A stretch of DNA of 64,000 nucleotides from an uncultured Bacteroidales bacterium. Lineage in GTDB: Bacteria; Bacteroidota; Bacteroidia; Bacteroidales; UBA11471. The translations under genes and the position numbers were made by a program. The first letter of the stretch is position 1. Every line of letters starts with the position of its first letter. The notes below the pieces were generated by a model. That model did not search any database, was not told the origin of the DNA, and saw only the letters and a list, made by a program, of their open reading frames with translations. Shown piece by piece: positions 5,938-61,279 of the stretch. The stretch spans positions 179,471-243,470 of the forward strand of contig CANQDQ010000002.1 in assembly GCA_947593515.1 (NCBI GenBank). Direction: 5' to 3'.

Positions 5938-5952
5938 AATTCGATTTTTATT

Positions 5953-6582: not shown

Positions 6583-6636
6583 GAATGAAAGGAAGATATA
6601 GAATATAAACGTTCTTTCACGGTAAATATTGTTTAT

Positions 6637-45056: not shown

Positions 45057-45611
45057 CTATAAATCTTCGCCATTTGCTTGATTGTATCCATTGTCATAGA
45101 ATAAGAGAATGCAATATGTTCCAGGTAAATACCCCTCAATTATCATAAACCAAACAAGTCTTTTGTCATAATCCGATGCCAAAAGTTGTTGGCAATAAAC
45201 GGCTTCATAACGTTTATTGTTTACACTCATTTCATATGATATATCCTCACTTTCAGGTATAGTAAAATCTTCCGATGATATATATTTAGGGTTATTGGCG
45301 AATTGGTTACAAAGATTGTTGAATCTTATTTTGATATTTGTTTCATCAATTTGATTTTTATCCACTACCATTATCCGGTAAACTTTATTGTTATTCGTTT
45401 TGACGAAGATATAAACGTCCTGTCCGTTAAATTCTCCCTCCAAATCAGAGACTTCACTTTTTTGAAATCCTTTTGCTTGGAGTTTCCGTATCATTTCGGT
45501 TTTACTCCCATCGACGGGAATCCCTAAAAATTGAGTAACCTCTTTCTCTTGCTGCGCATATACCGCTATCGCAAATGCGAGCAACATCGTAATCGACAGT
45601 AATTTTTTCAT
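45057..45611 (-). CDS. Secreted protein of unknown function
   Basis: A 184-residue protein. The ATG at 45611 gives a signal peptide (KKLLSITMLLAFAIAVYAQ), so it is exported to the periplasm or outer membrane. The mature part starts QEKEVTQFLGIPVDGSKTEMIRKLQAKGFQ, which resembles small Bacteroidota domains that compare two states of a peptide-like binding region, but I do not recognise a named family. It is more AT-rich than the housekeeping genes. It has a long leader containing a 122-nt hairpin and a terminator-like palindrome after its stop. Confidence 0.75.
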   Translation of the reverse strand: MKKLLSITMLLAFAIAVYAQQEKEVTQFLGIPVDGSKTEMIRKLQAKGFQKSEVSDLEGEFNGQDVYIFVKTNNNKVYRIMVVDKNQIDETNIKIRFNNLCNQFANNPKYISSEDFTIPESEDISYEMSVNNKRYEAVYCQQLLASDYDKRLVWFMIIEGYLPGTYCILLFYDNGYNQANGEDL

Positions 45612-45692
45612 GTCATTAAATTTTGTGTCCCCCAGCTGCCACAAGGACATTCATAGAATACAGCAAAAGCGTGGAACTGCAATGCCACGTCT
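45612..45692 (-). promoter_or_regulatory. Leader segment with second hairpin and motif shared with the LRR leader
   Basis: On the minus strand, CGTGG (45685-45689) can pair with CCACG (45670-45674). The same segment holds ACGCTTTTGC (45663-45672), TGGCAG (45636-45641) and GGGGG (45629-45633), similar in order to ACGCTCATGC, TGGCAG and GGGG in the LRR leader at 22802-22855. The 3' CCACGC could alternatively pair with GCGTGG of the long hairpin, giving mutually exclusive folds. Confidence 0.4.
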
Positions 45693-45814
45693 TAGTTTGA
45701 GGGTCGTAGGAAACCGTAGATACAGATATGGGGTATAGCAGTCCACGCTTATCGCGTGGAAGCCACTATGCTATCTTTGTATCTAATCTGAAAATTTCCT
45801 ACGTTTTCAAACTA
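45693..45814 (-). promoter_or_regulatory. 122-nt extended imperfect hairpin in the leader of the secreted-protein gene
   Basis: The two ends pair: TAGTTTGA (45693-45700) with TCAAACTA (45807-45814), GTAGGAAA (45706-45713) with TTTCCTAC (45795-45802), AGATACA (45718-45724) with its complement (45778-45784), GATA (45725-45728) with TATC (45772-45775), ATAG (45735-45738) with CTAT (45766-45769), and TCCACGC (45742-45748) with GCGTGGA (45754-45760) around a five-base loop. That is about 38 base pairs with small internal loops. It lies between a minus-strand promoter and the gene, so it would be transcribed as 5' UTR. Confidence 0.6.
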
Positions 45815-45877
45815 CAAGATAAGCATAACGCTTCTTTTTTCAATAATATGTCGGATAAAGCACCCTTTATCCGTTCA

Positions 45878-45885
45878 CAAAGATA
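45878..45885 (-). promoter_or_regulatory. -7 element upstream of the hairpin leader
   Basis: TATCTTTG on the minus strand; a TTTG (45900-45903) lies 14 bases upstream, a short spacing. Transcription would begin near 45870 and run through the long hairpin into 45611. Confidence 0.5.
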
Positions 45886-46000
45886 ATAAATTCCATAAAC
45901 AAAACGTGCGCAAAAGCCAAAATTTTGTTCTTGCCGAAAATAGACTGTTTCAATACGTCGAGTTTTTTCGTGCTTTTCACTTATCAATACTTTATACCGC

Positions 46001-46042
46001 CCACAAACAAAGCGGGGCGACGTATGGTCGCCCCGCTTTGTT
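46001..46042 (-). repeat. REP-like palindrome, copy 2 (terminator-like)
   Basis: Perfect 14-bp arms (46007-46020 and 46026-46039) around GTATG. Its core is the exact reverse complement of copy 1 at 44972-44998, while the flank to the left is the same. It lies just past the stop of the outer-membrane gene at 46077 and is T-rich on both outer sides, so it can terminate either strand. Confidence 0.8.
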
Positions 46043-46076
46043 TTTTATACCTGAATGGCAGAAATCAGCGCTGCAA

Positions 46077-46676
46077 TTAAAAGACAAAACTCAATTTTGC
46101 ATTGACGGAATTTTTATATTCGTACCCGATCTGCCAGCCGGTATAATTCACGCCGATTGCCAACCATTTGAGTATCAAATAATCATAGCCGGCAGATGCC
46201 GATATGGCAAAGCGGGTGTTTTCTTCTTTCATCGTTTTCTTAACATCGAAATCGGAAATAGGTGCAACCGTTATTCCGTCTTTCGATTCTTTCGACACGC
46301 CCAATCCCACTGTTCCTTGCAAATATATTTTATGGCGGTTTATATGCAGCACATCGCCACCCAGCCCCAAACCTATCATATAATCGCGGACGCTGTTCAT
46401 CAAGTTGAAACTGTATGATATACCGTCTCTTTCGTATTCATCGAGTTTGCTCCCGTCATTGACACCGGCATGGAAACCGGCAAGAACGAAAATGCGATTG
46501 TGAACGTAATATTTGTATTCTATGCCGAGATCGTAACCAGTACCGTCCCACATTTCCGGAAAATATTCATACCCGCCGAACAGAGCGAACTGGCTCGTTC
46601 CCTTTTGCGCAAAAGCGTTCAGCGACAGCGAACAAAACAACAGCAGTACAACTTTTTCCATATTTTTCATCTTCAT
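46077..46676 (-). CDS. Outer-membrane beta-barrel protein
   Basis: A 199-residue protein with a signal peptide (MEKVVLLLFCSLSLNAFAQ) and alternating aromatic beta-strands typical of small OmpW/OmpA-like barrels (QFALFGGYEYFP, YDLGIEYKYYV, IFVLAGFHAGVN, KIYLQGTVGLGVS, FAISASAGYDYLILKWLAIGVNY), ending in LSFVF with a C-terminal phenylalanine as expected for BAM-inserted barrels. Function is unknown. The start at 46676 is used; an ATG five codons later is an alternative. It has its own promoter at 46696-46724. Confidence 0.85.
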   Translation of the reverse strand: MKMKNMEKVVLLLFCSLSLNAFAQKGTSQFALFGGYEYFPEMWDGTGYDLGIEYKYYVHNRIFVLAGFHAGVNDGSKLDEYERDGISYSFNLMNSVRDYMIGLGLGGDVLHINRHKIYLQGTVGLGVSKESKDGITVAPISDFDVKKTMKEENTRFAISASAGYDYLILKWLAIGVNYTGWQIGYEYKNSVNAKLSFVF

Positions 46677-47000: not shown

Positions 47001-47735
47001 TTATTTCATCTTTGATAAAACATATTGAAAAAACCAATTCGGCATTTGCTCTTGTTTCGGTGTCAAAGTCCGATTTTCATATTCTGCCAACAACTGCCAC
47101 ATTTCTTCACTATTATCAAAAAAATAGGCTCTGTCGCAAAGTGATAAAACATCAAATACATTCTCTAAGGATTTCGTGTATCGCTTCCTTATTTTTTCTT
47201 CCGGTACATCGTGCCCTCCTGAACAAACCCGTTGATAAACTCTTTTAATATTGATTTCAACATCTTTGGTCGAGATAAAATACAGATATATACGATACCC
47301 CAAAGATTTTGCCTGTTTGATATACTCAATCTTCCGGCTGTCAGACAATACCGTTTCTATCGTAAATTGGGGAACGACGCCTAACATATTTTGTCGAATG
47401 TATTCGGCTATAAAGGCAGAAATATATCCGTTGGCATATTGCTTCGGAATATACAAACAATTCTCTTTTATCTCCAATGCTTGTATGATAGAATCTGCAT
47501 CTTGCAATTTATCGAAAAAACTTGATTTTCTTAACGTTTTTACAAAAGACTCTTTATCGACATGAATTTCATAGTCATTAAAAGTCAATCCGCCAATAGC
47601 AAGTTTGTGTTGAATATCATCGGCATTAACAAAATATTTGCAACCGATTTTCTTATCAACGACATCGAAAATCGTTGATTTACCCGAACCATTCGGTCCT
47701 GCAAAAATTCTAAGCCGTTTTGTTGCCATTGTCAT
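47001..47735 (-). CDS. Zeta-toxin-like P-loop kinase
   Basis: A 244-residue protein with Walker A GPNGSGKST (residues 13-21), a conserved NADDIQHKLA block as in zeta toxins (substrate aspartates after the first strand) and ETVLSDSRKIEYIKQAKSLGYRIYLYFI in the middle. Zeta kinases phosphorylate UDP-N-acetylglucosamine or other metabolites and poison cell-wall synthesis. It starts inside the stop codon of a small upstream gene (ATGA overlap at 47732-47735), the usual layout of a toxin-antitoxin operon. A housekeeping P-loop kinase is an alternative reading. Confidence 0.82.
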   Translation of the reverse strand: MTMATKRLRIFAGPNGSGKSTIFDVVDKKIGCKYFVNADDIQHKLAIGGLTFNDYEIHVDKESFVKTLRKSSFFDKLQDADSIIQALEIKENCLYIPKQYANGYISAFIAEYIRQNMLGVVPQFTIETVLSDSRKIEYIKQAKSLGYRIYLYFISTKDVEINIKRVYQRVCSGGHDVPEEKIRKRYTKSLENVFDVLSLCDRAYFFDNSEEMWQLLAEYENRTLTPKQEQMPNWFFQYVLSKMK

Positions 47736-47986
47736 GGTAGCTGATATTCGCGTATCTCTATTTTAATATCTTTATTTTTGATATGTCCGATGATATACGG
47801 TTTATTATCTCTTATTTCCACGATATCGTGCTTTTGGGCAACGGTATAGGCTATATTATTTCGTTTTGCTTCGAGAATACCGGGATTTTGTCGCGGAAGA
47901 ATCGATTTTGTAAAGTTCCGAGATTCTTCACTCAACAATTTTACTTCCCTTTTACTCGGTTGTACATTTGTGTTTTTCCTTGCCAT
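47732..47986 (-). CDS. Putative antitoxin partner of the zeta-like kinase
   Basis: An 84-residue, basic protein (ARKNTNVQPSKREVKLLSEESRNFTKSILPRQNPG, then AYTVAQKHDIVEIRDNKPYIIGHI). No DNA-binding motif is certain and I do not recognise a family. Its stop overlaps the kinase start by four bases, so the two are translated together, and it is the promoter-proximal gene. Size and position are those of an antitoxin; the function is inferred only from context. Confidence 0.65.
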   Translation of the reverse strand: MARKNTNVQPSKREVKLLSEESRNFTKSILPRQNPGILEAKRNNIAYTVAQKHDIVEIRDNKPYIIGHIKNKDIKIEIREYQLP

Positions 47987-48693: not shown

Positions 48694-49185
48694 TCAGAGT
48701 TCCAGTTCGACAGCCCGCATTTCGCGCAAGGAGCGCGGCACGTCGATAATGCGCTGGTTGCGGCTGCCGCGAAAGCGCAGGGAAATATCCCGCTGCGCCA
48801 AGATGAACGGGCTATCGACAAGGACGTCGATATAGGAAAGGAATTTACGCGGTACGGGCTGCATCATCAGCGACTCGAAGAAGTAGCCGGTGTAGCACCA
48901 TATCGTCTTGTCGGTTTCGGTCTTGATGCGGGCAGCCAGCGCCGTCAGCGGCTCGGCTTGCAGCATGGGGTCGCCGCCGGAGAAAGTAACATTCATATCG
49001 GCTTCCCGTATCAGGTCGAAAAGTTCATCGACCGTGCGCATGGTGCCGTTGCGCATATCCCACGACTGGGGATTGTGGCACCCCTCGCAGCGATTTTCGC
49101 AGCCGGCAACGTAGATAGAGGTACGCAGACCGACACCATCGACCGACGTACCCTCTACTACATCGAGAACAGAAATGCGGCACAT
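48694..49185 (-). CDS. nrdG: Anaerobic ribonucleotide reductase activating protein
   Basis: A 163-residue radical-SAM protein with the CxxxCxxC cluster in AGCENRCEGCHN and the SAM-binding VTFSGGDPMLQ. It uses reduced ferredoxin or flavodoxin and SAM to form the glycyl radical on NrdD. The ATG at 49185 lies one base after the nrdD stop; a longer frame would overlap nrdD and lacks homology. Confidence 0.95.
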   Translation of the reverse strand: MCRISVLDVVEGTSVDGVGLRTSIYVAGCENRCEGCHNPQSWDMRNGTMRTVDELFDLIREADMNVTFSGGDPMLQAEPLTALAARIKTETDKTIWCYTGYFFESLMMQPVPRKFLSYIDVLVDSPFILAQRDISLRFRGSRNQRIIDVPRSLREMRAVELEL

Positions 49186-49186
49186 A

Positions 49187-51394
49187 TCATTTGTGGACGA
49201 CACGGTCGTGGAGTTCTGCCAGTTTCGCATGATTCCAGCGGTCGGTGGCGCCGACCAGATAACCGGTGATGCGTTGCAGACGGTCGATGTGCGTGCTGTT
49301 GCAGTTGGGGCACACTTCGAGCGACTCCTGCGCATCTTCGTATCCGCAGTCCATACAGCGGTTGCGGTTGTGGTTCACCGAGCCGTAGCCGATGTTGTAC
49401 TTGTCCATCAAGTCCACGATGTCCATGATGGCATCGGGATTGTGGGTGGCGTCGCCGTCGATTTCCACGTAGAAAATGTGTCCGCCGCGCGTCAGGTCGT
49501 GATAAGGCGCCTCGACTTCGGCTTTGTGTTTCGGGCTGCAATGGTAATATACCGGCACGTGGTTGGAGTTGGTGTAATACTCTTTGTCGGTAACGCCTTT
49601 GATGATGCCGAATTCTTTTTTGTCCTTAGCCGTGAATTTACCGGAAAGCCCTTCTGCCGGAGTCGCCAGCACGCTGAAATTGTGATGATAACGCTCCGAA
49701 AATTCGTTCGCACGGTCGCGCATATAGGTAACGATGCGCAACCCGAGCTCCTGCGCGGCGACATCTTCGCCGTGATGTTTTCCGGTAAGGGCAATCAGGC
49801 ACTCCGCCAATCCGATGAAGCCGATGCCCAGCGTTCCTTGATTGATGACGCTCTCTATCGTATCGGTCGGTTTCAGATTCTCGCTGCCGACCCACAGCAT
49901 CGACATGAGCAGCGGGAACTGTTTCGCCATCGTCGTTTTCTGGAAGTTGAAACGGTCGTTCAACTGGCGCGCCGTCGTTTCGAGCACTTCATCGAGTTTC
50001 GCGAAGAAGGCGTTTATGCGCTCTTCCTTGTTTTCAATAGACATACATTCGATAGCCAGCCGCACGATGTTGATGGTCGTAAACGAAAGGTTGCCGCGAC
50101 CTATCGAGGTCTTTTCGCCGAAACGGTTCTCGAACACGCGGGTGCGGCAGCCCATCGTCGCCACTTCGTATTTGTAGCGCTGCGGGTCGTCCGCCCGCCA
50201 CAATTCATGTTGGTTGAACGTGGCGTCGAGATTGAGGAAATTCGGGAAAAAGCGGCGGGCGGTAACTTTGCAGGCATACCGGTAAAGGTCGTAATTCCGG
50301 TCGGTCGGCAGGTAGCTTACACCCCGCTTCTTTTTCCATATCTGTATAGGGAATATCGCCGTAGAGCCGTTGCCCACGCCCTGATAGGTGCTTATCAAAA
50401 TTTCACGAATGATGCAGCGACCTTCGGCGGAAGTGTCCGTACCGTAATTTATGGAGCTGAATACCACTTGATTGCCGCCGCGCGAGTGTATGGCATTCAT
50501 GTTGTGTATGAATGCCTCCATAGACTGGTGCACCCGCCGCACCGTGCGGTTAATAGCCTGCTGCTTGATGCGTTCGTCGCCCGTCAGTCCGTCCAACTCC
50601 TTGTAGAGGTAATCGTCGATAGGCGCGTTGTAAAGGTGCGAATAATCGGCGTCCATGAATTTTTCCAACACTTTCACCTCTTCGATGTAGCTCAGCCGCA
50701 CGTAAGGCGCCAGATAGAAGTCGAAAGCGGGAATGGCTTGCCCGCCGTGCATTTCGTTCTGCACGGTCTCCATAGAAATACAGCCCAGTATGCTCGCCGT
50801 CTCGATGCGTTTGGCGGGACGCGCCTCGCCGTGCCCGGCGCAGAAACCGTTATTCAGAATTTTATCCAGCGGGTGCTGCACGCAGGTGAGCGACTTGGTG
50901 GGATAATAATCCTTGTCGTGAATATGGATATAGCCGCGTCGCACGGCTTCGCGCGACTCTTGGCTCAACAGGTAATCATCGACAAAAGGTTTGGTGGTTT
51001 CGCTCGCGAATTTCATCATCATGCCGGCAGGCGTGTCGGCATTCATGTTGGCATTTTCGCGCGTGATGTCGTTCGACTTGGCATTGATGATGTCGAGAAA
51101 CACATCGCGTGTCTTGGCTTTGCGGGCGATGCTGCGCTGGTCGCGATAAGCGATATATTTTTTCGCCACCTCTTTTCGGGGGCTTTTCATCAGCTCCATT
51201 TCCACCCAGTCCTGAATCTCCTCCACACTCATCTGTTCCCGTCCGTTGCAGGCTATGCGGTCGGTAATCTTACGAATCAGCGATTCGTCTTCGCCTTTTT
51301 CCGTCTGGAGCATTGCTTTGCGTATCGCCGCCATGATTTTTTCTTCATTGAAGCCGACGATGCGTCCGTCTCGTTTGATAATCGTTTGTATCAT
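49187..51394 (-). CDS. nrdD: Anaerobic (class III) ribonucleoside-triphosphate reductase
   Basis: A 735-residue glycyl-radical enzyme. It has an N-terminal ATP-cone (MIQTIIKRDGRIVGFNEEKI, about residues 1-95), the central reductase barrel and a C-terminal zinc site (CMDCGYEDAQ and CPNCNSTH) before the radical loop RITGYLVG (glycine at about 711). It reduces NTPs to dNTPs without oxygen and without cobalamin. The gene is preceded by a cobalamin riboswitch and followed by nrdG after one base. Confidence 0.96.
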   Translation of the reverse strand: MIQTIIKRDGRIVGFNEEKIMAAIRKAMLQTEKGEDESLIRKITDRIACNGREQMSVEEIQDWVEMELMKSPRKEVAKKYIAYRDQRSIARKAKTRDVFLDIINAKSNDITRENANMNADTPAGMMMKFASETTKPFVDDYLLSQESREAVRRGYIHIHDKDYYPTKSLTCVQHPLDKILNNGFCAGHGEARPAKRIETASILGCISMETVQNEMHGGQAIPAFDFYLAPYVRLSYIEEVKVLEKFMDADYSHLYNAPIDDYLYKELDGLTGDERIKQQAINRTVRRVHQSMEAFIHNMNAIHSRGGNQVVFSSINYGTDTSAEGRCIIREILISTYQGVGNGSTAIFPIQIWKKKRGVSYLPTDRNYDLYRYACKVTARRFFPNFLNLDATFNQHELWRADDPQRYKYEVATMGCRTRVFENRFGEKTSIGRGNLSFTTINIVRLAIECMSIENKEERINAFFAKLDEVLETTARQLNDRFNFQKTTMAKQFPLLMSMLWVGSENLKPTDTIESVINQGTLGIGFIGLAECLIALTGKHHGEDVAAQELGLRIVTYMRDRANEFSERYHHNFSVLATPAEGLSGKFTAKDKKEFGIIKGVTDKEYYTNSNHVPVYYHCSPKHKAEVEAPYHDLTRGGHIFYVEIDGDATHNPDAIMDIVDLMDKYNIGYGSVNHNRNRCMDCGYEDAQESLEVCPNCNSTHIDRLQRITGYLVGATDRWNHAKLAELHDRVVHK

Positions 51395-51439
51395 ATCCGT
51401 ATGAGGTATTAAATTTTACGTCCTGTTTCAGACGGGGAA

Positions 51440-51665
51440 GGTTTACACGACAAGCGATCTTGGAGCAGAGTTGTTGTGCAGCTTTCACCCGAAGCCGTTT
51501 CCGACAATGGCGCACCCGGCAGGTCTTCTGACTTGTTCCCTTTTGCCCGCCTTCCCGATGTTTCAAAATCAGTGGCACTTCGGGCAAAATTTTGTTCCGG
51601 AATTTACAGCTACGGGGATAGTTCCTGACTTTCACAGGATTCCCTTTTCATCTCTGAATTCGAGA
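51440..51665 (-). promoter_or_regulatory. Cobalamin (B12) riboswitch upstream of nrdDG-purN
   Basis: Read on the minus strand the region shows the conserved cobalamin-aptamer order: GGGAATCCTGTGAAAGTCAGG, then CCCCGTAGCTGTAAA, the B12-box region GCCACTG (about 51569-51575), a CGGGAAGG block and the closing GTCAGAAGACCTGCC. The core spans about 51510-51660; the sequence down to about 51440 probably forms the expression platform before the nrdD start at 51394. B12 binding normally turns such leaders off, here shutting down a B12-independent reductase when B12 is available. Confidence 0.88.
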
Positions 51666-51678
51666 ACCGAATGCGATG

Positions 51679-51710
51679 CAAATATATAATCGGGGAAATT
51701 TATTTCCAAA
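51679..51710 (-). promoter_or_regulatory. Promoter of the riboswitch-nrdDG-purN transcript
   Basis: On the minus strand, TTTG (51707-51710), 20 bases, TATATTTG (51679-51686), just upstream of the aptamer. Confidence 0.75.
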
Positions 51711-51943
51711 TATTTTTCAGAAAAGTTTTTCTTTTTGGAAAACTTTTGTTCTTCGACAAAAGTCAAGTAAACAATCGAATTTTACATATAAAATATTATT
51801 AATCAATATATTACAGTAATAAGATAAAGCGTTTTAATTTGTTAAAATGGAAAACTTTATGTTCAAAAACATTTTTCTTTTTCTATCACGAACATTATCA
51901 ATAAAATAATATAAATAGGATAAAACAACGAATTTGTTGCAGC
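51711..51943. other. AT-rich spacer
   Basis: Between the nrdD promoter and the stop of the lipid kinase I see only A/T-rich sequence, without a supported gene or clear hairpin. Confidence 0.5.
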
Positions 51944-52909
51944 TTAAATATCCAATTCGTGTTTGATCGTATCGACCACGTCGAATATCAACGATTGTAT
52001 CGGCTCCACAATCGACTTGCGCGGTTTCTTGCCCGGCACCAAAACTTTCAAGCCGCCTTTCACGCAGGAAATTTCTATTTTTTCCGGCATATCCACCGGT
52101 TCGCCGTCGAGGTGCATCACGCCCGACCGCTCCCGCGTAACGGTAAGCGCATTCGTCTCGAACGCTTTTACGTAAGGGCTGACCCACAGCCATTTGGTGA
52201 AAAGCTGCACGACAACGGGCAGCACATCTATCGGTGTAATGGGGTAAAGAATGGTAACATCGATTTTGCCGTCGTGCAAGTCGGCGCGCGGGGCGATATA
52301 GGCGTTGTTGCCATATTGGGCGGCATTTCCGCAAGCCACCACGAAGGCTTTTTCCTGTATCACGCCGTCGGCAGTCTCTATGCGGTAAACTTCATTCTTG
52401 TATTTCAGATATTCTTCGACGGCTTTTTTCACATAATTCATCGCCCCCCGATGCTTGCCTTCGGCAAATTTACGACTCACCCACGCATCGAATCCCATAC
52501 CGCAAGTACAGAAAAAGACTTTTTCGTTGGCTTTGCCGTAGTCTATCGATTCCACGACGGCGGTATCGAGCATCTGCAATGCCCGCTCCGGGTCGAGCGG
52601 AATGGAGAGGTGCCGCGCCAATCCGTTGCCTGAACCTATGGGTATGATGCCAAACGCCGTATCGGTGTGTATCAGCGAGCGTGCGACTTCGTTGCAAGTG
52701 CCGTCGCCTCCCACCGCCACGACATACGGATATTTTTTATCGACCGCCTCCTGCGCCAACAGCGTGGCATGACCGGCATATTCGGTATAGCATATCTCGA
52801 CATCGAAACGCGACGAGAGTATGGATGTTGCCCGTTCCGGTATGCGCTCTTTCGTGTGCGTACCCGATACGGGATTGATTATCAACAACATTTTTTCTTT
52901 CTCGTCCAT
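51944..52909 (-). CDS. Diacylglycerol/lipid kinase family protein (YegS/DgkB-like)
   Basis: A 321-residue protein with LLIINPVSGTHTKE at the start, the nucleotide-binding loop VAVGGDGTCNEVA and GSGNGLARHLSIP, the defining motifs of the DAGK catalytic family. It phosphorylates a lipid such as diacylglycerol, ceramide or sphingosine-like bases with ATP; Bacteroidota make sphingolipids, so a long-chain-base substrate is possible. A -7 element at 52934-52941 means a TTG at 52936 cannot be the start; the ATG at 52909 (MDEKEKMLL) is preferred, with an ATG at 52924 as alternative. Confidence 0.9.
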   Translation of the reverse strand: MDEKEKMLLIINPVSGTHTKERIPERATSILSSRFDVEICYTEYAGHATLLAQEAVDKKYPYVVAVGGDGTCNEVARSLIHTDTAFGIIPIGSGNGLARHLSIPLDPERALQMLDTAVVESIDYGKANEKVFFCTCGMGFDAWVSRKFAEGKHRGAMNYVKKAVEEYLKYKNEVYRIETADGVIQEKAFVVACGNAAQYGNNAYIAPRADLHDGKIDVTILYPITPIDVLPVVVQLFTKWLWVSPYVKAFETNALTVTRERSGVMHLDGEPVDMPEKIEISCVKGGLKVLVPGKKPRKSIVEPIQSLIFDVVDTIKHELDI

Positions 52910-52933
52910 TCCGTATATCGACATTACTTTTCC

Positions 52934-52941
52934 CAAAGATA
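52934..52941 (-). promoter_or_regulatory. -7 element of the lipid kinase gene
   Basis: TATCTTTG on the minus strand. It helps fix the gene start, because any start at or upstream of it would not be transcribed. Confidence 0.6.
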
Positions 52942-52992
52942 CGAGTTATCTTATTATTTACCAAAACAATTTTTATTTCCGCATAGTTTTGC

Positions 52993-53000
52993 TATATTTG
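52993..53000 (+). promoter_or_regulatory. -7 element of the HdeD-like gene
   Basis: TATATTTG, 76 bases before the start at 53077. Confidence 0.55.
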
Positions 53001-53076
53001 CTTGATGAAAAACGGCATGAAAGCGGAGCGTCCGCCCACGTTTGCCGCATAAAGGTCTAATTAAATTTTTAATCGT

Positions 53077-53595
53077 ATGGACTTTCTCATTAAAAATCCG
53101 CTTATACGCAACCTGCTCGTGATTGCTTTGGGCGGGGTGCTGATTGCTTACCCGCAACTCGGTCCGAAAATCGTCATCATGGTCATCGGAGCCCTGTTGG
53201 CGATACCTGCCCTGTTGGCGATTATCGGCTACATTTCGGCTAAAAAACAGAACGCGCCTCTCCCCGATTATATATTGGTAGAGAGTGTGGGAGCTTTGAT
53301 TCTGGGGCTGTTGATGCTGTTGATACCCTCGCTGTTCAGCACGATTATCACCATGACGCTGGGAATCATTCTTTTCTTGGCAGGGCTTTTGCAAATTCTT
53401 TCGTTAGCCCGCGCCGGACACGCGATGGCCATACCCGCAGTCATGTACATCGTTCCCGTGTTGATTGTCATCGCCGGCGTCATTACTTTCTTCAACCCGT
53501 TCGAGACGATAAACGCCATCATGATTATTTTCGGCATTTCGACGATTGTTTTCGGCATCACCGAAATCATTCGCTCCTACAAATACCGCGCTTAA
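53077..53595 (+). CDS. HdeD/DUF308 family membrane protein
   Basis: A 172-residue protein with six short hydrophobic helices arranged as repeated pairs (NLLVIALGGVLIAYPQLG, GALILGLLMLLIPSLF, AGVITFFNPFETINAIMIIFGIS), the pattern of the DUF308/HdeD family. In enteric bacteria HdeD is linked to acid tolerance, but the role in Bacteroidota is unknown. It is monocistronic and is followed by an AT-rich accessory gene. Confidence 0.85.
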   Translation: MDFLIKNPLIRNLLVIALGGVLIAYPQLGPKIVIMVIGALLAIPALLAIIGYISAKKQNAPLPDYILVESVGALILGLLMLLIPSLFSTIITMTLGIILFLAGLLQILSLARAGHAMAIPAVMYIVPVLIVIAGVITFFNPFETINAIMIIFGISTIVFGITEIIRSYKYRA

Positions 53596-53630
53596 AAACT
53601 GTATAGAATATTATATCTAAGTTGATTCTT

Positions 53631-55404
53631 ATGAATGAAATTGTAAGAACCTACGAAACTTATGCAAGCAAATGTAGTCAAGAAGCGATTTTTCTTAGAA
53701 AAAAGAGTAATTACTATGTAATAGGAAAGCTAATATCCTTTATATTATTTCTATATATCCTTTATATTACATATAAAACTCCCAATTATTATACGATAGC
53801 AATAAGTGTCATATTATTTATGATATATATAGCACTTGTAGTATTAGATAATAATTGCATAAATAAAATAGACCGACTGAAAAGAAAAATAACTATTTGT
53901 CGGAATGAACTAAATGCCTTAAAAGGAGATTTTTCTCCTTTTAGATCCGGAGATCGTTTTATTGACCCGGAACATGAATATACCTTTGATTTAGATATTT
54001 TCGGGAAAAACTCTCTTTTTAATCGATTAAATAACAATAACAGAAAAAGGAGAAACAGCCTTATCAAATAAGTTTATTCACTTATGCCAAGATGAAGAAG
54101 AAATTAAAAAAAATTCCGAAGCTATTGCAGAACTCAAACAAATGGTCGATTGGAGAATTTCTTTCTTAGCAAAAGATTTTGTGCCATATAATTTATTGGA
54201 GGTTGAGGTTATTCAGAGGAATGATAATTTTATTACAAAATCGATTTTACCATATATTTCTGTTTTACTTACTTTAGTATTATTTATTTTGGGAGTTGTT
54301 AATTACATTAGCTTGATTCCTTTTGCCATTATGTTCTTTTTGCAGCTATCCATCGGTTTATTTTCCTCAAAGAAATTAACATATCATGGAGTTAAAGCTG
54401 AACGCTTACAAAAAGAATATCAAGGATATTTTTATATATTAAAAATGTTATATCATCAGAATTTTAGTTCGGAAAAGATAAATGCAATAAAGAATAAATT
54501 ATTTAGCAATAGACATAATAGTCAAAAAGCATTTTATCAATTATCTAAAATTCTCAATCTGATTGATCAAAGAAACAGCCCTATTCTTTTTATCCTGTTA
54601 AATGGTTTCTTTCTTTATGATTTGATGTTGATAAGACAAATAAAATCTTGGAATATCAAATATTATGAATATTTAGATGTATGGATTGACCAGATAGCAG
54701 AATTTGACGCATTACTTAGTTTATCTATATATGCTTTTAATAACCCTGAAAACGTAAATGCTCAAATTCAAAATGAAACAAATTTAATATTAAATACAGA
54801 AGATATTTTTCACCCTTTTTTAGCTAATGGCAAAGCTATTAAAAATAATTTCTCTTTATATAGAGGCGACATTGCAATTGTTACGGGAGCCAATATGGCA
54901 GGTAAAAGTACTTTTTTACGAACTATCGGCGTAAATTATATATTAGCCTGTTGTGGCGCTCCGGTATGTGCGAAATCATTTACCTTTTCTATTGTTACTC
55001 TATTCTCAAGTATGAGAACAACAGATAATCTATCCAAAGATATATCATATTTTAATGCAGAGTTAATACGGCTTGAAAAGTTAATCAGGCATGTAAAAAA
55101 GCACCATTATACCTTGATAATCCTTGATGAAATATTTAAAGGCACCAATTCTAAGGATAAATTGGAAGGCTCAGTAATGTTCCTACATGAAATATCTAAA
55201 TATAATGTATCCGGAATAGTCGCTACTCACGATTTAGAATTATCAAAATTAGAAATGGAAGAAAATGAATCTAAATTCATTAATTTCTGTTTCGAAATAG
55301 AATTGTCTGATGAAATTAAGTATTCATATAAAATCAGGAAAGGAGTAGCTCAAAATTTGAATGCATCGTATCTATTGTCAAACATAATAAATAAATTGAA
55401 ATGA
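53631..55404 (+). pseudogene. Membrane-anchored MutS-like ATPase, frameshifted
   Basis: Two reading frames make one gene. Frame 1 (53631-54071) holds two membrane helices and DPEHEYTFDLDIFGKNSLFNRLNN, the entry to the MutS core. Frame 2 continues from about 54035 as TITEKGETALSNKFIHLC and includes two more helices and the MutS ATPase: Walker A TGANMAGKST, signature SMRTTDNLSKDISYF, Walker B TLIILDEIFKGTN and VATHDLELS. The break lies at an AATAACAATAAC tract (about 54027-54042), where one extra base explains it. No mismatch-recognition domain is present. Function is unknown. The gene is strongly AT-rich compared with its neighbours, which suggests transfer. A sequencing error or programmed shift cannot be excluded. 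Confidence 0.8.
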
Positions 55405-55475
55405 AAGTATTAATTGTAAATACATTTTCTATACAATCAACATTTTCATCGTTTAACACAGCATCTGTTTAATAA

Positions 55476-55504
55476 AAAATCCGGCAGCTATGCTGCCGGA
55501 TTTT
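55476..55504. terminator. Bidirectional terminator between MutS-like gene and DUF5606 gene
   Basis: Perfect 13-bp arms (55476-55488, 55492-55504) with a TAT loop, A-rich left and T-rich right, between convergent genes. Confidence 0.85.
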
Positions 55505-55508
55505 CTGT

Positions 55509-55937
55509 TTATTCAGCTTTCTTATCGACTTCTGGCGTCGCTTCTTCCTGTACGGAAAAGTCGGTGATGCCGCTTTGTATCAAAATATTGTACCAAGATA
55601 TGAGTTTGGCAATGTCGGTGGGATATACACGGTCTCTGTCGAAATCGGGCAGCACCGATGCCAGATAAGTACGCAACTCCTCTTTGTCGGCTTTGGGCGA
55701 AAGGGCGACAGGAGCGCCGTTCTCTTTTTCCTTTATTTTCGTAAGCACTTCGCTCAACGGCACTTCATCGGATTGCGTGTACATGGCTATATCGCCCAAC
55801 GAGGTAACTTTGTCGTGGCTATATGCCAAACCGCGTTTTCCGGTCGCCAGCGCCTCTACGACCAACGCTCCTCTTGCCTGCGCCACCATGCGGTAGAGAC
55901 CGGAACGTCCCGATATAGATAAAATCTTTTTCAACAT
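55509..55937 (-). CDS. DUF5606 domain protein
   Basis: A 142-residue cytoplasmic protein starting MLKKILSISGRSGLYRMVAQARGALVVEAL, the recognisable N-terminus of the Bacteroidota DUF5606 family, with an acidic tail. No function is established from sequence. It lies downstream of coaE in the nusB-yajC-ybbR-coaE string, a conserved neighbourhood in Bacteroidales as far as I recall. Confidence 0.85.
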   Translation of the reverse strand: MLKKILSISGRSGLYRMVAQARGALVVEALATGKRGLAYSHDKVTSLGDIAMYTQSDEVPLSEVLTKIKEKENGAPVALSPKADKEELRTYLASVLPDFDRDRVYPTDIAKLISWYNILIQSGITDFSVQEEATPEVDKKAE

Positions 55938-56019
55938 AGTTTTTACTTTTTCGATTTCGCTGCAAAAATAACAGGATTCGCCGTATTATTCAAAAAAGGC
56001 GCTCCAATTTTTATATTCT

Positions 56020-56601
56020 TTATATAAATCGGTTTTGTAATGCGCCGAGTATCTGCGAAATAAGCGGCGCTTTGTTGTCGTTGTGCAGCACGAGGGAGGC
56101 ATACCGTTCTTTGATTTCATCGCTCCATTGCGCACGAATGCGCTGCCGTGCTTCCTGCGCCGAACAGGAATCGCGCCGCACGATACGCGCCACACGAATC
56201 TCTTCCGGTGCTTCGACGAGCCACACGGCATCGACCATATCGGTGAATCCCGATTCTACCAATATTGCCGACTCCATGAAAACTATCGGTGCATCGCCAT
56301 GTACTTCTGTCCAACGGCGGAAATCGACGCGCACGGCAGGGTGCACCGCCGCGTTCAACCGCTCCAATGCCGACGCATCGGAGAACACTTTACCCGCCAG
56401 TGCGCGGCGGTCGAGCCGTCCGCCCGCATAAATGTCTGCGCCGAAAATTTCGGAAAGCTGTTTTTTCAAGGTTTCGTCGCCGTCCATGATTCTTTTGGCT
56501 TCGGCATCGCTGTCATATACGGCATAGCCCATCGCCCGCAAAAAGCGGCTGACGATGGATTTGCCGCTGCCTATGCCTCCCGTAATGCCGACAACCTGCA
56601 T
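56020..56601 (-). CDS. coaE: Dephospho-CoA kinase
   Basis: A 193-residue P-loop kinase with GITGGIGSGKS (residues 5-15), YDSDAEAKRIM and VWLVEAPEEIRVARIVRRD. It phosphorylates dephospho-CoA at the 3'-OH of the ribose, the last step of CoA synthesis. The ATG at 56601 was chosen over an upstream start that would overlap ybbR. It follows ybbR by 4 bases. Confidence 0.95.
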   Translation of the reverse strand: MQVVGITGGIGSGKSIVSRFLRAMGYAVYDSDAEAKRIMDGDETLKKQLSEIFGADIYAGGRLDRRALAGKVFSDASALERLNAAVHPAVRVDFRRWTEVHGDAPIVFMESAILVESGFTDMVDAVWLVEAPEEIRVARIVRRDSCSAQEARQRIRAQWSDEIKERYASLVLHNDNKAPLISQILGALQNRFI

Positions 56602-56605
56602 ACGA

Positions 56606-57604
56606 CTACCGTTTTTGTTCGAGCACATACTCCACACTGTCGGGAACGATTCGCAACACTTCGCCCGGCGCGCGAACAATTTTTACGGCAAGTTTCTCCG
56701 GCAGATTTTTCGTTTCTTTGTAATCGACAGCCACCCGTACATCGCGCTCCGACAATTTCGAGAAGCGACTCATCGGTATCACGCAATCGACCGTTACAGT
56801 TGCCGGAAAAGCGAGCAGCGAAACGTCGTGCGGCAGATTCCTTACGGCAATGGGCACGGTAAACGATTTCGTCGTCAACTCTTCGACGGGAACGGTTACG
56901 ACCACCTCGTCGGGAACCATTTTCACACCGTTCATTTTTTTCAACGGCACACGCTCTTTCCACGTGGCGGCAAGGTCGGCAACGGCGAAAGAGTCGGTCT
57001 CGACCTTGTTAATCGTTTTCAACATACGTTCAGGTGCATACACTTGTACGGAGTCTATATCGGTCGTGATTTTGCCGTTCTGGATACATTGCGGCAGCGT
57101 CGATACCGAACCTACGACCTGCACTTTCACCTTCTTCCCCACGCCTTGTGCATAATACACCGCCAGCGTATCGATGGATATGTAGGTCAGATTCGTCGTG
57201 TTTTTCAGACTTTTTTTGATTTGGTCTTTTATCTGCTCCGACGTGAGTATGAAAAATTCGTGATCGGTATGGTATTGGCGAAAATCGACCACAAACGCAG
57301 GTATTCCTTCGATATTGTAATTGAGTAGCACCGCCCCCTCGTCGCGCAGATGCACGGTTACGGTCGAAGGCAGGTCGTTGGTTACGATTATATCGTCGGG
57401 AATATTGGTGTATTTTATCGGTATGCGGTACGACGTGTTCATGTCTTCGCTCAGCGACTGCATTACCCAAAACAGGAAAGAAAGCGCCACAAAAAGCAAG
57501 AACGTGAATATTTCGCGCCTCCGCCCGCCTTGCACACGGACATTTCCATTGCCGAAAAACGCCTTAAAAAAAACGGCTGCCTGATTTAATTTTTTTTTCG
57601 CCAT
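56606..57604 (-). CDS. YbbR-like domain protein
   Basis: A 332-residue protein with one N-terminal membrane segment (FTFLLFVALSFLFWVMQSL, about residues 29-47) and extracytoplasmic YbbR repeats (PIKYTNIPDDIIVTNDLPSTVTVHLRDEG and KVKVQVVGSVSTLPQC). The homologue CdaR regulates the diadenylate cyclase CdaA in Firmicutes; whether that applies here is open, as no cdaA is adjacent. It sits between yajC and coaE. Confidence 0.88.
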   Translation of the reverse strand: MAKKKLNQAAVFFKAFFGNGNVRVQGGRRREIFTFLLFVALSFLFWVMQSLSEDMNTSYRIPIKYTNIPDDIIVTNDLPSTVTVHLRDEGAVLLNYNIEGIPAFVVDFRQYHTDHEFFILTSEQIKDQIKKSLKNTTNLTYISIDTLAVYYAQGVGKKVKVQVVGSVSTLPQCIQNGKITTDIDSVQVYAPERMLKTINKVETDSFAVADLAATWKERVPLKKMNGVKMVPDEVVVTVPVEELTTKSFTVPIAVRNLPHDVSLLAFPATVTVDCVIPMSRFSKLSERDVRVAVDYKETKNLPEKLAVKIVRAPGEVLRIVPDSVEYVLEQKR

Positions 57605-57698
57605 CGTGATTTTACGATTTTACGGGTTAAAGATAGGGCTTTTTATTCTTTTACGAATAAAAAGCCCACCTCTTTTTTTACCTTTTGAACTTGCCGCC

Positions 57699-58022
57699 CT
57701 ATTTTGCCGTAGCATTGACATCGGCAGCCGACGCATAAATGGAGGCTTTATCGACGGTAATGCGCACATTGTCGGCAATCTCCACGACAACGGTCGTGTC
57801 TTTTACGGCTTTCACTTTTCCGTGAATGCCGCCGGCGGTAATTATTTTCTGCCCTTCGGCGAGCGCTTCGCGGAATTTGCGGATTTCTTTCTGGCGTTTG
57901 CTCTGCGGGCGTATCATGAAGAAGTAGAAAATGGCTATCAACGCCACTATCATGATGAGCGAAGAATATCCTCCGCCTGCCGGTGCGGCAGCCTCTTGCA
58001 AAAGAATGTTCAATAGTGTCAT
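57699..58022 (-). CDS. yajC: Preprotein translocase subunit YajC
   Basis: A 107-residue protein with a single membrane helix (YSSLIMIVALIAIFYFFMIRPQSKRQKE) and the YajC cytosolic domain (GGIHGKVKAVKDTTVVVEIADNVRITVDKASI). It associates with SecDF in protein export. It starts 34 bases after the nusB stop. Confidence 0.95.
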   Translation of the reverse strand: MTLLNILLQEAAAPAGGGYSSLIMIVALIAIFYFFMIRPQSKRQKEIRKFREALAEGQKIITAGGIHGKVKAVKDTTVVVEIADNVRITVDKASIYASAADVNATAK

Positions 58023-58056
58023 AATCGTATGGTTTATGTTTAGTGAATAATTGTTG

Positions 58057-58977
58057 TCATTTTGTCAGTTTTCCCTCCTTTTTGAGCAGGGTGATTACGG
58101 CATCGAGTACGCCGTTGATGAAGTTTCCGCTTTTCGGCGTGCTGTACGACTTGGCAATCTCGATATATTCGTTGAGCGACACCTGCAACGGTATCGATGG
58201 AAATTCGGTGATTTCAGCCAGTGCGACGGCCATCACCACGATGTCCATGAAAGCGATGCGGTCGATTTCCCAGTTGCGGGTGAAGCGTTCTATCATGCTG
58301 CGGTTTTCCTCGTAATTCAACATCGAACGGCGGAAAAGCGTTCGTGCAAAATCGCGGTCGTCCTCGTCTTTGAACATAGGCAGAAGCTCTTGGTCAGCAT
58401 CGGACTTTTCGTCGAACCGTTTTACCGTTTTCAGCACGAAAGTCGAAATGATGGGCATATCGTCGTTCCAATAGAGGCTCTGCGCCTCCAAAAGCTCACC
58501 CAGATTTTCATCGGGGAATATCACCTGCTTATAGATGTTTTTCCAAAACGTGCGGTCGTTCTCGAAAGAATCGTCGGCAGCCAGATACTCTGCATACCAC
58601 TCCGAGTCGAGTATCTTGTCGAGCAGCCCGCGCAGATAGTTCGTATCGTCGCTCCACACCAGCGGACGCTCCTTGATATATTTCCGGAAGGCTCTGTTCT
58701 TTTCCAGCAGGGCGACAAAGCGGTTATCGACAAGCCTCGTATTGGGATATTTCTCGGCTTCCGTCGCCAAAAACTTGCTGCGGCCGGCATCGAGGCGCTG
58801 GGCTTGCAGCCGCGTCAGCTCCACCGGTATCAACAGAAGCAGGTGGTACAATTCATACGACTTTTCCAGACTTGCAAAAAGCTCTTTTTCAGCCAATTCC
58901 AAGCTCTTATCTTCGTCGATAAGACAAGAATAGACGATTTGTACCACTTTGGTGCGTATCAATATACGATTGATCAT
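58057..58977 (-). CDS. nusB: Transcription antitermination factor NusB, long Bacteroidota form
   Basis: A 306-residue protein starting MINRILIRTKVVQIVYSCLID. The NusB helical core is in the C-terminal part (about 185-300: KDEDDRDFARTLFRRSM, DRIAFMDIVVMAVALAEIT, PLQVSLNEYIEIAKSYSTPKSGNFINGVLDAVI). Typical NusB is about 140 residues; Bacteroidota carry an N-terminal extension of about 150 residues, as here. With NusE it promotes rRNA antitermination. The ATG at 58977 was chosen; a longer frame upstream runs through the spacer and lacks homology. Confidence 0.9.
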   Translation of the reverse strand: MINRILIRTKVVQIVYSCLIDEDKSLELAEKELFASLEKSYELYHLLLLIPVELTRLQAQRLDAGRSKFLATEAEKYPNTRLVDNRFVALLEKNRAFRKYIKERPLVWSDDTNYLRGLLDKILDSEWYAEYLAADDSFENDRTFWKNIYKQVIFPDENLGELLEAQSLYWNDDMPIISTFVLKTVKRFDEKSDADQELLPMFKDEDDRDFARTLFRRSMLNYEENRSMIERFTRNWEIDRIAFMDIVVMAVALAEITEFPSIPLQVSLNEYIEIAKSYSTPKSGNFINGVLDAVITLLKKEGKLTK

Positions 58978-59284
58978 ATCCCTTTTTCGTATTGTTTCGG
59001 GGGTAAAGGTACAACTTTTTTCAGAATCCGAGCGGTTACCCTGCGCAAAATCGCAATAAAAAAGAAGGTCCCGACTCTCACGAGCCGACCTTCCGAACTT
59101 GAAATATATCAAAAACAAGAAAGAGGATAACTTATTCATTTCGGAATAAGCAGGATAAAATACCAATGAAACACACAAAAACGAGAATCTTTATTGTTTT
59201 GATACTGCCCGAACGCCTTCGGGCGGCTTTCGATAATAAAAACAGCCGGACGATAAAAAAGTTTTTCAAAACGAAAAATTTTTA
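58978..59284. other. Intergenic spacer with two small hairpins
   Basis: No gene is supported. GAAGGTC (59064-59070) can pair with GACCTTC (59087-59093), with A-rich sequence to the left (T-run on the minus strand), and GCCCGAA (59207-59213) with TTCGGGC (59218-59224). The first looks like a terminator remnant for minus-strand transcription. Confidence 0.4.
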
Positions 59285-59314
59285 TTTGCCGGTCGGCGGG
59301 AAATCGTATCTTTG
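59285..59314 (+). promoter_or_regulatory. Promoter of the formate/nitrite transporter gene
   Basis: TTTG (59285-59288), 18 bases, TATCTTTG (59307-59314); 28 bases before the start codon. Confidence 0.78.
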
Positions 59315-59342
59315 TGCCGTTACTCTTTTGTAGAAAAATATC

Positions 59343-60122
59343 ATGAGCGTACTTGCGTCCCCCGAAATCGTCGCTGCGGCAGAAAATGCCGCCGGTCAAA
59401 AACTGAATTTTTCCGCACGAAAAACCGTCTTGCTGGCCGTTTTGGCGGGCATCTACATCGCTATGGGCGGACTGCTCTCGGTACTTGTCGGGTACGGATT
59501 CCCCTCACTGTCCGCCCACAATCCGGGTCTGCAAAAACTGCTGTCGGGGACGATGTTCCCGCTGGGACTTATTCTCGTGGTGTTCGCCGGAGCCGAGCTG
59601 TTCACCGGCAACAACGCCGTACTGATACCCGGATTGTGCAACCGCAAATACGACATCGGAGCGGTGTTGCGCAACTGGGGGCTTGTATATCTCGGCAATT
59701 TTGCCGGCGCCCTGTTTTTCGTGTATGTCATGATATTCTACACGGGGCTGCTCGATGCCGAGCCGTATCGTTCCGCCATACGCACCGTAGCCGAAGCCAA
59801 AGTGCATATGTCGTGGGGCGTAACCTTTGTAAAAGGCATCGGCGCCAACTGGTTCGTCTGTCTGGCAGTATGGTTGGGATTCGCCTGTCGCAGCGCAGCG
59901 GGCAAGTTCATCGGGCTATGGTTTCCCGTCATGGCTTTCGCGGCAATGGGCTACGAACACAGCATCGCCAATATGTTTTTCATTCCGTCGGGCATGTTGC
60001 AAGGCGCCGATGTATCGATTGCCGATTTCGTCGTGCGCAACCTTATTCCCGCCACGCTCGGCAACATCGCCGGCGGTGCGATTTTCGTCGGCGGACTTTA
60101 CTGGTACATCTACCGGAAATAA
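59343..60122 (+). CDS. Formate/nitrite transporter (FocA/NirC family)
   Basis: A 259-residue protein with six membrane helices and the FNT signatures GIYIAMGGLLSVLVG, AGAELFTGNNAVL, NWGLVYLGNFAGAL and KGIGANWFVCLAVWLG, then PVMAFAAMGYEHSIANMF. FNT channels pass formate, nitrite or HS- across the inner membrane. For an anaerobic fermenter formate is the likely solute, but no pfl gene is adjacent, so this is inference. It is convergent with the acyltransferase gene, with 14 bases between them. Confidence 0.93.
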   Translation: MSVLASPEIVAAAENAAGQKLNFSARKTVLLAVLAGIYIAMGGLLSVLVGYGFPSLSAHNPGLQKLLSGTMFPLGLILVVFAGAELFTGNNAVLIPGLCNRKYDIGAVLRNWGLVYLGNFAGALFFVYVMIFYTGLLDAEPYRSAIRTVAEAKVHMSWGVTFVKGIGANWFVCLAVWLGFACRSAAGKFIGLWFPVMAFAAMGYEHSIANMFFIPSGMLQGADVSIADFVVRNLIPATLGNIAGGAIFVGGLYWYIYRK

Positions 60123-60136
60123 TCACCCCCCCGCTC

Positions 60137-61279
60137 CTACCTGCGTCCCGTCAGCACCCGCAACAGTGCCGGCGTATAACGCCGCATCAAATAAAATGCC
60201 GAAAGCAAAAACGCAAGCGTCAAAACGACTGTGGAAATATGTATGAACAATAACGAGATGCTCGACGCCGGCTGCAAATATATGTATAAAAGTTTAAGCA
60301 GTTTTCCACATATCAACGAATGCGATACATAAATAAAAAAGCTCGACGATGCCAAGAACGGACTCGCTTTGCAATATTTCTTCCGTAACAGCCACGCCGC
60401 CAAATTATAGGCAAACAGCAATCCGAAAAATACATTCAAACTTTTTATCGTTTTGCAAATTTCAGGACACCAATGTACGGCTGCCACGTACGATAAGCCA
60501 AGAATCGAATACATGAACACCGACAACCGAAAATAGCGACCGAACTCCACCAACATATCCTTTCGGTTGATGCTCATATATGCGCCCCATGAGAAAAAGA
60601 AAAAAGCTCCGAAAAAGCCCAAAAAGTCTTGCCCTCCTTTATCAAAATATCCGTTAAAAAACCATAAAATACCCAACACCACCACGAACCAATAATTACC
60701 TCGTTTCATCAACCAATAAAGCAGCGGTGTACACAAAACAACAATCATCAAATCACGTACAAACCAAAGCGGACCATTTATTGGTCCTCCAGCTTCCGGA
60801 AGTTCTATTCCGAATAATTGTCCGGTATATACCCAGTAGCAGGAAAGAATATTCCCGAATGTAGGATTCCAAGACGACATAGGAGACGCCAAGAAAGATG
60901 CAAAATAAACTTGCGATACAACCATTAAAAGAAGGGATATCGTATTCCATATCAAATAAGGTATCAACAGGGTGTGTACTCTGTTTTTTAATTTTTGAAT
61001 ATATTTTTCCCTACTCCATTCCACCGAAAGAAAAAATACGAATCCAGAAATAAAAAAGTATATCGGAACACTTTGCTCTCTTAAAAATCCATCGATGAAA
61101 CATTTGATTTCCTCAAAGAACACAGCATTAGAGAAATCTATTTCATTACCATTGAAAATTATACCTGAACCTCTATTTGAAAATACGTGTATAATTACAA
61201 TCACCACCGCCAAGGGGAATCGTAACAAATCCAACGCCTGCGACCGTAAATCCGAACGGTCTGCTTTTTTCATTTCCAT
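60137..61279 (-). CDS. Acyltransferase 3 family membrane protein
   Basis: A 380-residue protein with about ten membrane helices. The N-terminus SQALDLLRFPLAVVIVIIHVFS carries the conserved active histidine of the acyltransferase_3 family (normally R-x10-H), and VPIYFFISGFVFF follows. These enzymes O-acetylate or otherwise acylate surface polysaccharides or lipids. Its base composition is more AT-rich than the housekeeping genes and it lies close to the tRNA-linked accessory region. The acceptor is unknown. Confidence 0.88.
   Translation of the reverse strand: MEMKKADRSDLRSQALDLLRFPLAVVIVIIHVFSNRGSGIIFNGNEIDFSNAVFFEEIKCFIDGFLREQSVPIYFFISGFVFFLSVEWSREKYIQKLKNRVHTLLIPYLIWNTISLLLMVVSQVYFASFLASPMSSWNPTFGNILSCYWVYTGQLFGIELPEAGGPINGPLWFVRDLMIVVLCTPLLYWLMKRGNYWFVVVLGILWFFNGYFDKGGQDFLGFFGAFFFFSWGAYMSINRKDMLVEFGRYFRLSVFMYSILGLSYVAAVHWCPEICKTIKSLNVFFGLLFAYNLAAWLLRKKYCKASPFLASSSFFIYVSHSLICGKLLKLLYIYLQPASSISLLFIHISTVVLTLAFLLSAFYLMRRYTPALLRVLTGRR

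Follow-up and report, generated by a model that had tools for sequence, protein, structure and literature searches.

A probably acquired and recently broken gene for a predicted membrane-anchored MutS-family ATPase of a widespread Bacteroidota family

What would a MutS-type ATPase do at a membrane, and how did a gene for one come to be both broken and unusually AT-rich? This question is raised by positions 53631-55404 of the window, by which we mean the whole stretch of 64,000 nucleotides analysed here (G000:C2:179471-243470), taken from a Bacteroidales assembly of 2.26 Mb in 44 contigs that is an estimated 99.4% complete. We put at roughly 0.7 the probability that this gene for a membrane-anchored ATPase of the MutS family was horizontally acquired and recently broken, that it belongs to a widespread and uncharacterised Bacteroidota family, and that the intact protein is a membrane-tethered clamp or remodeller. 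MutS domain V occurs in three genes of the genome: the split gene studied here and two open frames, of 942 aa and 854 aa, whose length and matches lead us to take them as MutS1 and MutS2, respectively. The features of the locus are as follows:

53631..54071, plus strand: 5' piece of the split gene, 146 aa, with the predicted N-terminal membrane hairpin and the start of MutS domain III; stop at 54071
53715..53846, plus strand: N-terminal pair of membrane helices predicted from hydropathy, at residues 29-47 and 54-72
53988..54174, plus strand: DLDIFG...SLF block, which corresponds to the initial part of MutS domain III and is split by the frame shift
54027..54040, plus strand: frame-shift site with two bases fewer than the intact relative L020, holding an apparent AATAACAATAAC repeat
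54037..55404, plus strand: 3' piece, an open frame with the second predicted membrane hairpin, the lever region and MutS domain V
54244..54363, plus strand: second predicted pair of membrane helices, in place of the MutS levers and clamp, from hydropathy and profile alignment
54877..55356, plus strand: MutS domain V ATPase, with Walker A at 54886-54912, Walker B at 55120-55131 and ATHD at 55222-55233
53596..55470, unstranded: putative inserted segment (DUF308 and DUF5606 lie about 90 bp apart in two genomes of the same genus)
55471..55509, unstranded: terminator-like hairpin; by eye, the empty sites have a hairpin of other sequence there

The Pfam MutS_V model matches the 3' piece with an E value of 8.3e-26, at 90.7-91.5 bits against a cut-off of 30.2, and the ATPase motifs are present, which places the protein in the MutS superfamily. 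The sequence-only reading, which had described a MutS-like ATPase split by a frame shift at 53631-55404, was thus right about both the protein and its position. The earliest usable start codon of the 3' piece lies at 54142 and gives 420 aa, in a frame that differs from that of the 5' piece. NCBIfam models of MutS, KamC and MutS2 also match the 3' piece, far below their cut-offs. In agreement with the claim that the gene is much richer in AT than its neighbours, the GC3 of its two halves is 0.20 and 0.23, compared to 0.56-0.70 in the six nearby genes measured. Note that a second AT-rich stretch, at 46-48 kb, holds two genes with a GC3 of 0.33 and 0.46, so the split gene is extreme yet not the sole AT-rich spot.

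Several other observations were made in the window. An AT-rich gene for a zeta-toxin-like kinase (Pfam PF06414, 2.8e-6) lies on the minus strand at 47001-47986, and an 84-aa ORF at 47732-47986, which has no Pfam match, overlaps and precedes it; the two could form a toxin-antitoxin pair in the AT-rich stretch at 45-48 kb. The nrdD gene for the oxygen-independent ribonucleotide reductase occupies 49187-51394, its likely activase 48694-49335, and a cobalamin riboswitch (Rfam RF00174, 112 bits) lies just upstream of nrdD, at 51501-51686 on the minus strand. Finally, arrays of imperfect 69-base tandem repeats at 23201-24646 perhaps belong to a repeat-rich surface protein.

An intact homologue was looked for and found at the same locus in the Bacteroidales assembly Lapin-001 bin46, the nearest named relative found. 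Its locus, L020, aligns cleanly to 49041-60161 of the window (11.1 kb, 96.9% identity) and carries the gene unbroken, as one frame of 591 aa that starts at the same ATG. Compared to L020, the window has two bases missing at about 54030. Six indels separate the two sequences over the 11.1 kb. By the gene calls made here, five of these, all single-base, are intergenic, and the two-base indel is the sole one within a gene.

The break, which is known from one assembly, lies where the sequence-only reading had placed it, but the AATAACAATAAC repeat named in that reading, present in two apparent copies at the break, is absent from L020. Since it is absent there, the repeat most likely arose as a by-product of the two-base deletion. 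It had also been proposed that slippage at this repeat toggles the gene on and off, and an apparent two-copy repeat does sit at the break. Such phase variation is hardly credible, however, because the repeat is missing from the intact relative, has two units only, and its 6-base unit is frame-neutral when a whole unit slips. A unit number that alters the frame and varies between strains was not seen in the comparison with this one intact relative. A programmed frame shift was also considered and was rejected, as the intact L020 gene needs none. A frame shift fixed in all strains would have pointed to simple decay, but the one comparable relative has an unbroken frame, which shows that the break is not shared by all strains. 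On this point G006, a third close relative, is uninformative, since its contig ends inside the preceding gene and no family member was found in its assembly. In a separate alignment, 45058-46662 of the window matches 5277-6893 of the G006 locus L155 at 90.7% identity with many gaps, the flanks being about 97% identical, and by this comparison it is a faster-changing spot.

Differences from L020 were counted simply, codon by codon, with no multiple-hit correction, and 8 of them are non-synonymous. Upstream of the break, 2 non-synonymous and 6 synonymous differences give a dN/dS of 0.086; downstream of it, 6 and 15, respectively, give 0.099. Both halves are thus constrained (dN/dS about 0.09-0.10), which means that the break is recent or that it is an assembly error; by these counts selection constrained the split gene until recently, or continues to do so in the latter case. 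An assembly or consensus error, the gene being intact in the organism, would account for the constraint on both halves and for the two-base indel being the one indel of the six that falls within a gene, and it would fit the intact gene at the same locus in L020. We consider it unlikely, although by no means negligible, because the surrounding 11 kb aligns cleanly to L020 and because a two-base deletion would be an unusual type of error if the assembly was made from short reads. Under the preferred reading of a real and recent break, the gene of the window strain is probably non-functional, barring the case in which the 420-aa 3' piece works alone.

What the intact protein might be was addressed through its relatives. 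Out of 79 distinct full-length relatives, 70 were aligned, mostly from the best-scoring loci. MutS_V is found in all 70 and MutS_III in 58 (Pfam, E 0.01); in the intact counterpart the MutS_III match reaches 18.7 bits, under the Pfam cut-off of 34.1. Neither MutS_I, MutS_II, MutS_IV and Smr nor nucleases are among the 18 families reported for the 70 relatives at E 0.01. The protein had been described as an ATPase core lacking the mismatch domain, and the second half of this description stands; the first does not, because 58/70 relatives match the start of MutS domain III and the protein is therefore more than an ATPase core. When the 70-row profile was compared with solved structures, domain III was matched over its initial part by residues 122-182 in MSH2 and by residues 128-174 in MutS, and residues from about 350 to 584 aligned to the end of domain III plus domain V, the usual domain borders of MutS being used. 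The stretch between the aligned parts, which holds the second hairpin, would thus stand for the MutS levers and clamp. The family can accordingly be described as proteins of about 600 aa with an N-terminal hairpin, the start of domain III, a middle hairpin and domain V, and the intact counterpart, aligned with 69 others, has all of these parts. Most residues of the ATPase motifs do not vary across the 70-row alignment.

The hairpins were predicted by a hydropathy rule, a 19-residue window with a mean of at least 1.5. Two such windows lie ahead of the domain III block in 67/70 relatives and one in the remaining 3/70, and residues 190-262 hold two windows in 51/70 and one in 19/70. The loops between paired windows are short, with medians of 5 and 2 residues. 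The rule must be regarded as loose, because windows also pass it in the lever part (21/70) and after residue 350 (23/70). As a control, none of 10 MutS1 or MutS2 rows from the same genus has a window pair, while four MutS1 rows have one window (the MutS1 rows being cut at locus ends). The predicted structure, with a mean pLDDT of 54, was unusable, and the helices are predictions from hydropathy and alignment. Measured as mean top-residue frequency, conservation is 0.30-0.40 in the hairpins against 0.61 in domain V, the highest measured; such weak conservation is as expected of anchors. Both pairs are retained in a Bacteroides finegoldii member of 604 aa; two Bacillota members of 536 and 551 aa, from Staphylococcus aureus and Ruminococcus albus, keep the middle pair and have one N-terminal window instead of two. 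The two pairs of membrane helices that had been noticed in the sequence are thus recovered by hydropathy, and the proposal of a membrane-type MutS rather than one of classic repair gains from these predicted hairpins across the family and from the unreported domains I, II and IV.

Next, the family was compared with known MutS-type systems. It resembles MutS1/MSH in its domain V ATPase, which has the GTN and TH motifs besides Walker A and Walker B, and in the alignment of both the start and the end of domain III. In contrast to MutS1, no mismatch reader (domain I), connector (domain II) or clamp (domain IV) is reported in it; there are two hydrophobic hairpins, with hydrophobic windows in the place of the domain IV clamp, and the length is about 600 aa rather than the 942 aa of the genome's long MutS frame. 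The NCBIfam mutS1 model gives 72 bits, far from its cut-off of 641.7. With MutS2, which is also devoid of domains I and II (PMC12292046), it shares that absence and a related ATPase. The intact counterpart nevertheless matches MutS2 more weakly than MutS1 (65 bits against a cut-off of 400), it has the hairpins, Smr is not among the reported families, and the window genome has the separate 854-aa gene taken as MutS2. KamC, the lysine 5,6-aminomutase reactivase ATPase (NF052383), is a MutS-type ATPase named for protein reactivation whose model is matched by 70/70 relatives; in the intact counterpart, however, the match spans residues 344-534 and reaches 83 bits, far below the model's cut-off of 300.

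By profile, the proteins annotated as 'MutS family DNA mismatch repair protein' in B. finegoldii and S. aureus, and as 'DNA mismatch repair protein MutS' in R. albus, are of the same family. The MutS8 subfamily of Ogata et al., 2011, is reportedly defined by phylogenetic grouping with the viral and Amoebophilus MutS8. It has been reported in Cardinium and in giant viruses (PMC5698495, PMC3749498), and many prokaryotic MutS subfamilies that lack domains I and II are described as largely uncharacterised in PMC12292046, which cites Ogata et al. 2011. Our search of the literature on MutS and KamC, which left most subscription papers outside, yielded no paper whose title or opening abstract lines deal with a MutS bound to the membrane. 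The window copy adds a new, broken member to a family already in existence, on which we found no study.

The family is widespread. A search with a five-row profile (E of 1e-40 or lower, shorter relatives counted) found it in 181/393 sampled genomes of the order and in 128/395 sampled genomes of the phylum. In the phylum sample, relatives with frames of 439-454 aa match the C-terminal half only (positions ~353-602). They are listed for 13 genomes, and in 8 of these a full-length member is present too; they are a probable subfamily without the N-terminal part. Among 72,556 plasmid records there were 82 matches, all below 60% identity, of which 6 cover at least 80% of the query. Three records of the plasmid set were examined: the B. 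finegoldii and S. aureus members sit among housekeeping genes, and the R. albus member is on a 420-kb plasmid typed as mobilizable. Moreover, 13 Staphylococcus plasmid records carry MutS-type ATPases; for those listed from S. epidermidis and S. capitis the match is confined to residues 305-583, and they are, judged by that match, mobile relatives of the ATPase half. The R. albus plasmid and the 13 Staphylococcus records together indicate that relatives do occur on plasmids. In phages, 27 matches were found in 50,697 records, none covering 80%, and a scan of viral contigs with the five-row alignment yielded no relative.

How the AT-rich copy reached its present site was examined in the same genus. 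Two of its genomes, G001 and G004, have matches to the flanking DUF308 and DUF5606 genes about 90 bp apart with, by eye, only a hairpin between them, as in an empty site. Both have a GC-rich homologue at another locus (GC3 of 0.74 for G001), beside a DUF1573 gene. At the corresponding place of the window genome (L151, 2164-3760) the DUF1573 gene adjoins aroB without the MutS-like gene. The DUF1573 region is also present in G005 and G006 and, as in the window genome, the stretches fetched contain no family member. None of the 7 genus genomes has both copies; no family member was found in 3 of them, two of which are less than 80% complete.

In a tree of 79 relatives, in which the window gene was represented by its intact counterpart, it pairs with a gene of G330, from another family of the order, with an SH-aLRT of 100 and 41-42% identity. 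The G330 region is AT-rich as well (29-43% GC in 1-kb steps). Holding the window gene with the G001 and G004 copies was rejected (p-AU 0.00017), as was holding it with the 13 rows of the wider G001/G004 clade with G330 outside (p-AU 0.0022). Placing the window/G330 pair inside the G001/G004 clade was not rejected (p-AU 0.51) and was 1.45 log units better than the free tree, and this placement leaves room for an old paralogy with losses. From the empty site, the tree and a GC3 of 0.20-0.23, it is most likely that the window copy was acquired by transfer into this lineage, and the transfer proposed by the sequence-only reading is the best account of the data. That an ancient second copy was kept here and lost elsewhere, with no transfer at all, we regard as improbable: it draws on the deep placement just mentioned, but it has to explain the empty site in both G001 and G004, a GC3 of about 0.2 amid genes of 0.56-0.70 and the lack of any genus genome with both copies. 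No transposase or integrase was seen by eye among the ORFs adjoining the gene, and a weak 8-base inverted match, also noted by eye, lies near both ends of the segment.

A patchy distribution and an apparent transfer would also fit a part of a defence or DNA-uptake system, as had been suggested, and in PADLOC the family itself matches mainly mad8 (46/70 relatives at E 0.001). In the one member with coordinates, however, mad8 matches over 47 residues of the ATPase. Homologue neighbours were analysed at 42 loci, and no neighbour cluster is common to more than 4 of them (at 41 of which the family member itself entered the clustering). A DUF1573-type cluster occurs in 3/42 loci, and DUF1573 is the commonest Pfam family, in 4 of 142 neighbour proteins, the scan covering 142 of 155. 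Against the same 142 proteins no PADLOC family was found in more than two, although single neighbours strongly match PDC-S02 (1.1e-130) and a CRISPR-associated PD_DExK model. Thus, neither a full-length defence match nor recurrent defence neighbours were found, nothing that would point to DNA uptake was seen, and we consider a defence or uptake role very improbable. Same-strand ORFs lie within 60 bp upstream in 15/41 cases and downstream in 7/41; the defence-island and operon readings find no support from recurrent neighbours.

The absence of domains I, II and IV from the reported families and the hairpins shared by the relatives lead us to propose that the intact protein is most likely a membrane-tethered, dimeric MutS-type ATPase working outside mismatch repair. 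In MutS proteins the heads form dimers that share their ATP sites, and the arms change position with the ATP state. By analogy, two copies would dimerise through MutS-type ATPase heads in the cytoplasm, and ATP binding and hydrolysis would open and close the arms. The arms would end in a short membrane hairpin in place of the DNA clamp, and the N-terminal hairpin would provide a further fastening to the membrane. The whole may act as an ATP-driven, membrane-tethered clamp or remodeller of a large partner complex, be it nucleic acid, ribosome or protein, rather than as a detector of mismatches. Such a clamp or remodeller is favoured because the hairpins, being short and poorly conserved, look like anchors and not like a transport path.

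The main rival to this proposal is a membrane-bound MutS that still acts on DNA, for instance by tethering or editing recombination intermediates at the membrane, in a manner comparable to MutS2. Membership of the MutS family speaks for it, as do the slightly positive return-lever segment (median net charge +4.5) and the precedent of MutS2, which according to PMC12292046 does without domains I and II. Set against these, the families reported for the 70 relatives include neither domain IV nor nucleases or Smr, and no neighbour cluster is found at more than 4/42 loci; on balance we find it doubtful, although less so than the other alternatives. As stated in PMC12292046, MutS2 rescues ribosomes, and MutS ATPases can therefore serve outside DNA. 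We suggest, tentatively and at somewhat less than even odds, that this MutS subfamily, derived from a DNA clamp, has become a machine of the membrane: with hairpins in place of its arm tips, it would act on the membrane itself or on a partner bound there, and would have no role in DNA repair. If so, it would represent a separate use of the MutS engine, beside mismatch repair, recombination, ribosome rescue and enzyme reactivation.

The interest of the finding thus lies in the family, of which the broken window copy is one instance. All three annotated records that we examined label its members as mismatch repair proteins, and the family seems to be without both of the parts by which MutS reads and holds DNA. 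If the family is indeed a membrane ATPase, many mismatch-repair labels are misleading, and laboratory Bacteroides or Flavobacterium would allow a new task of the MutS engine to be tested.
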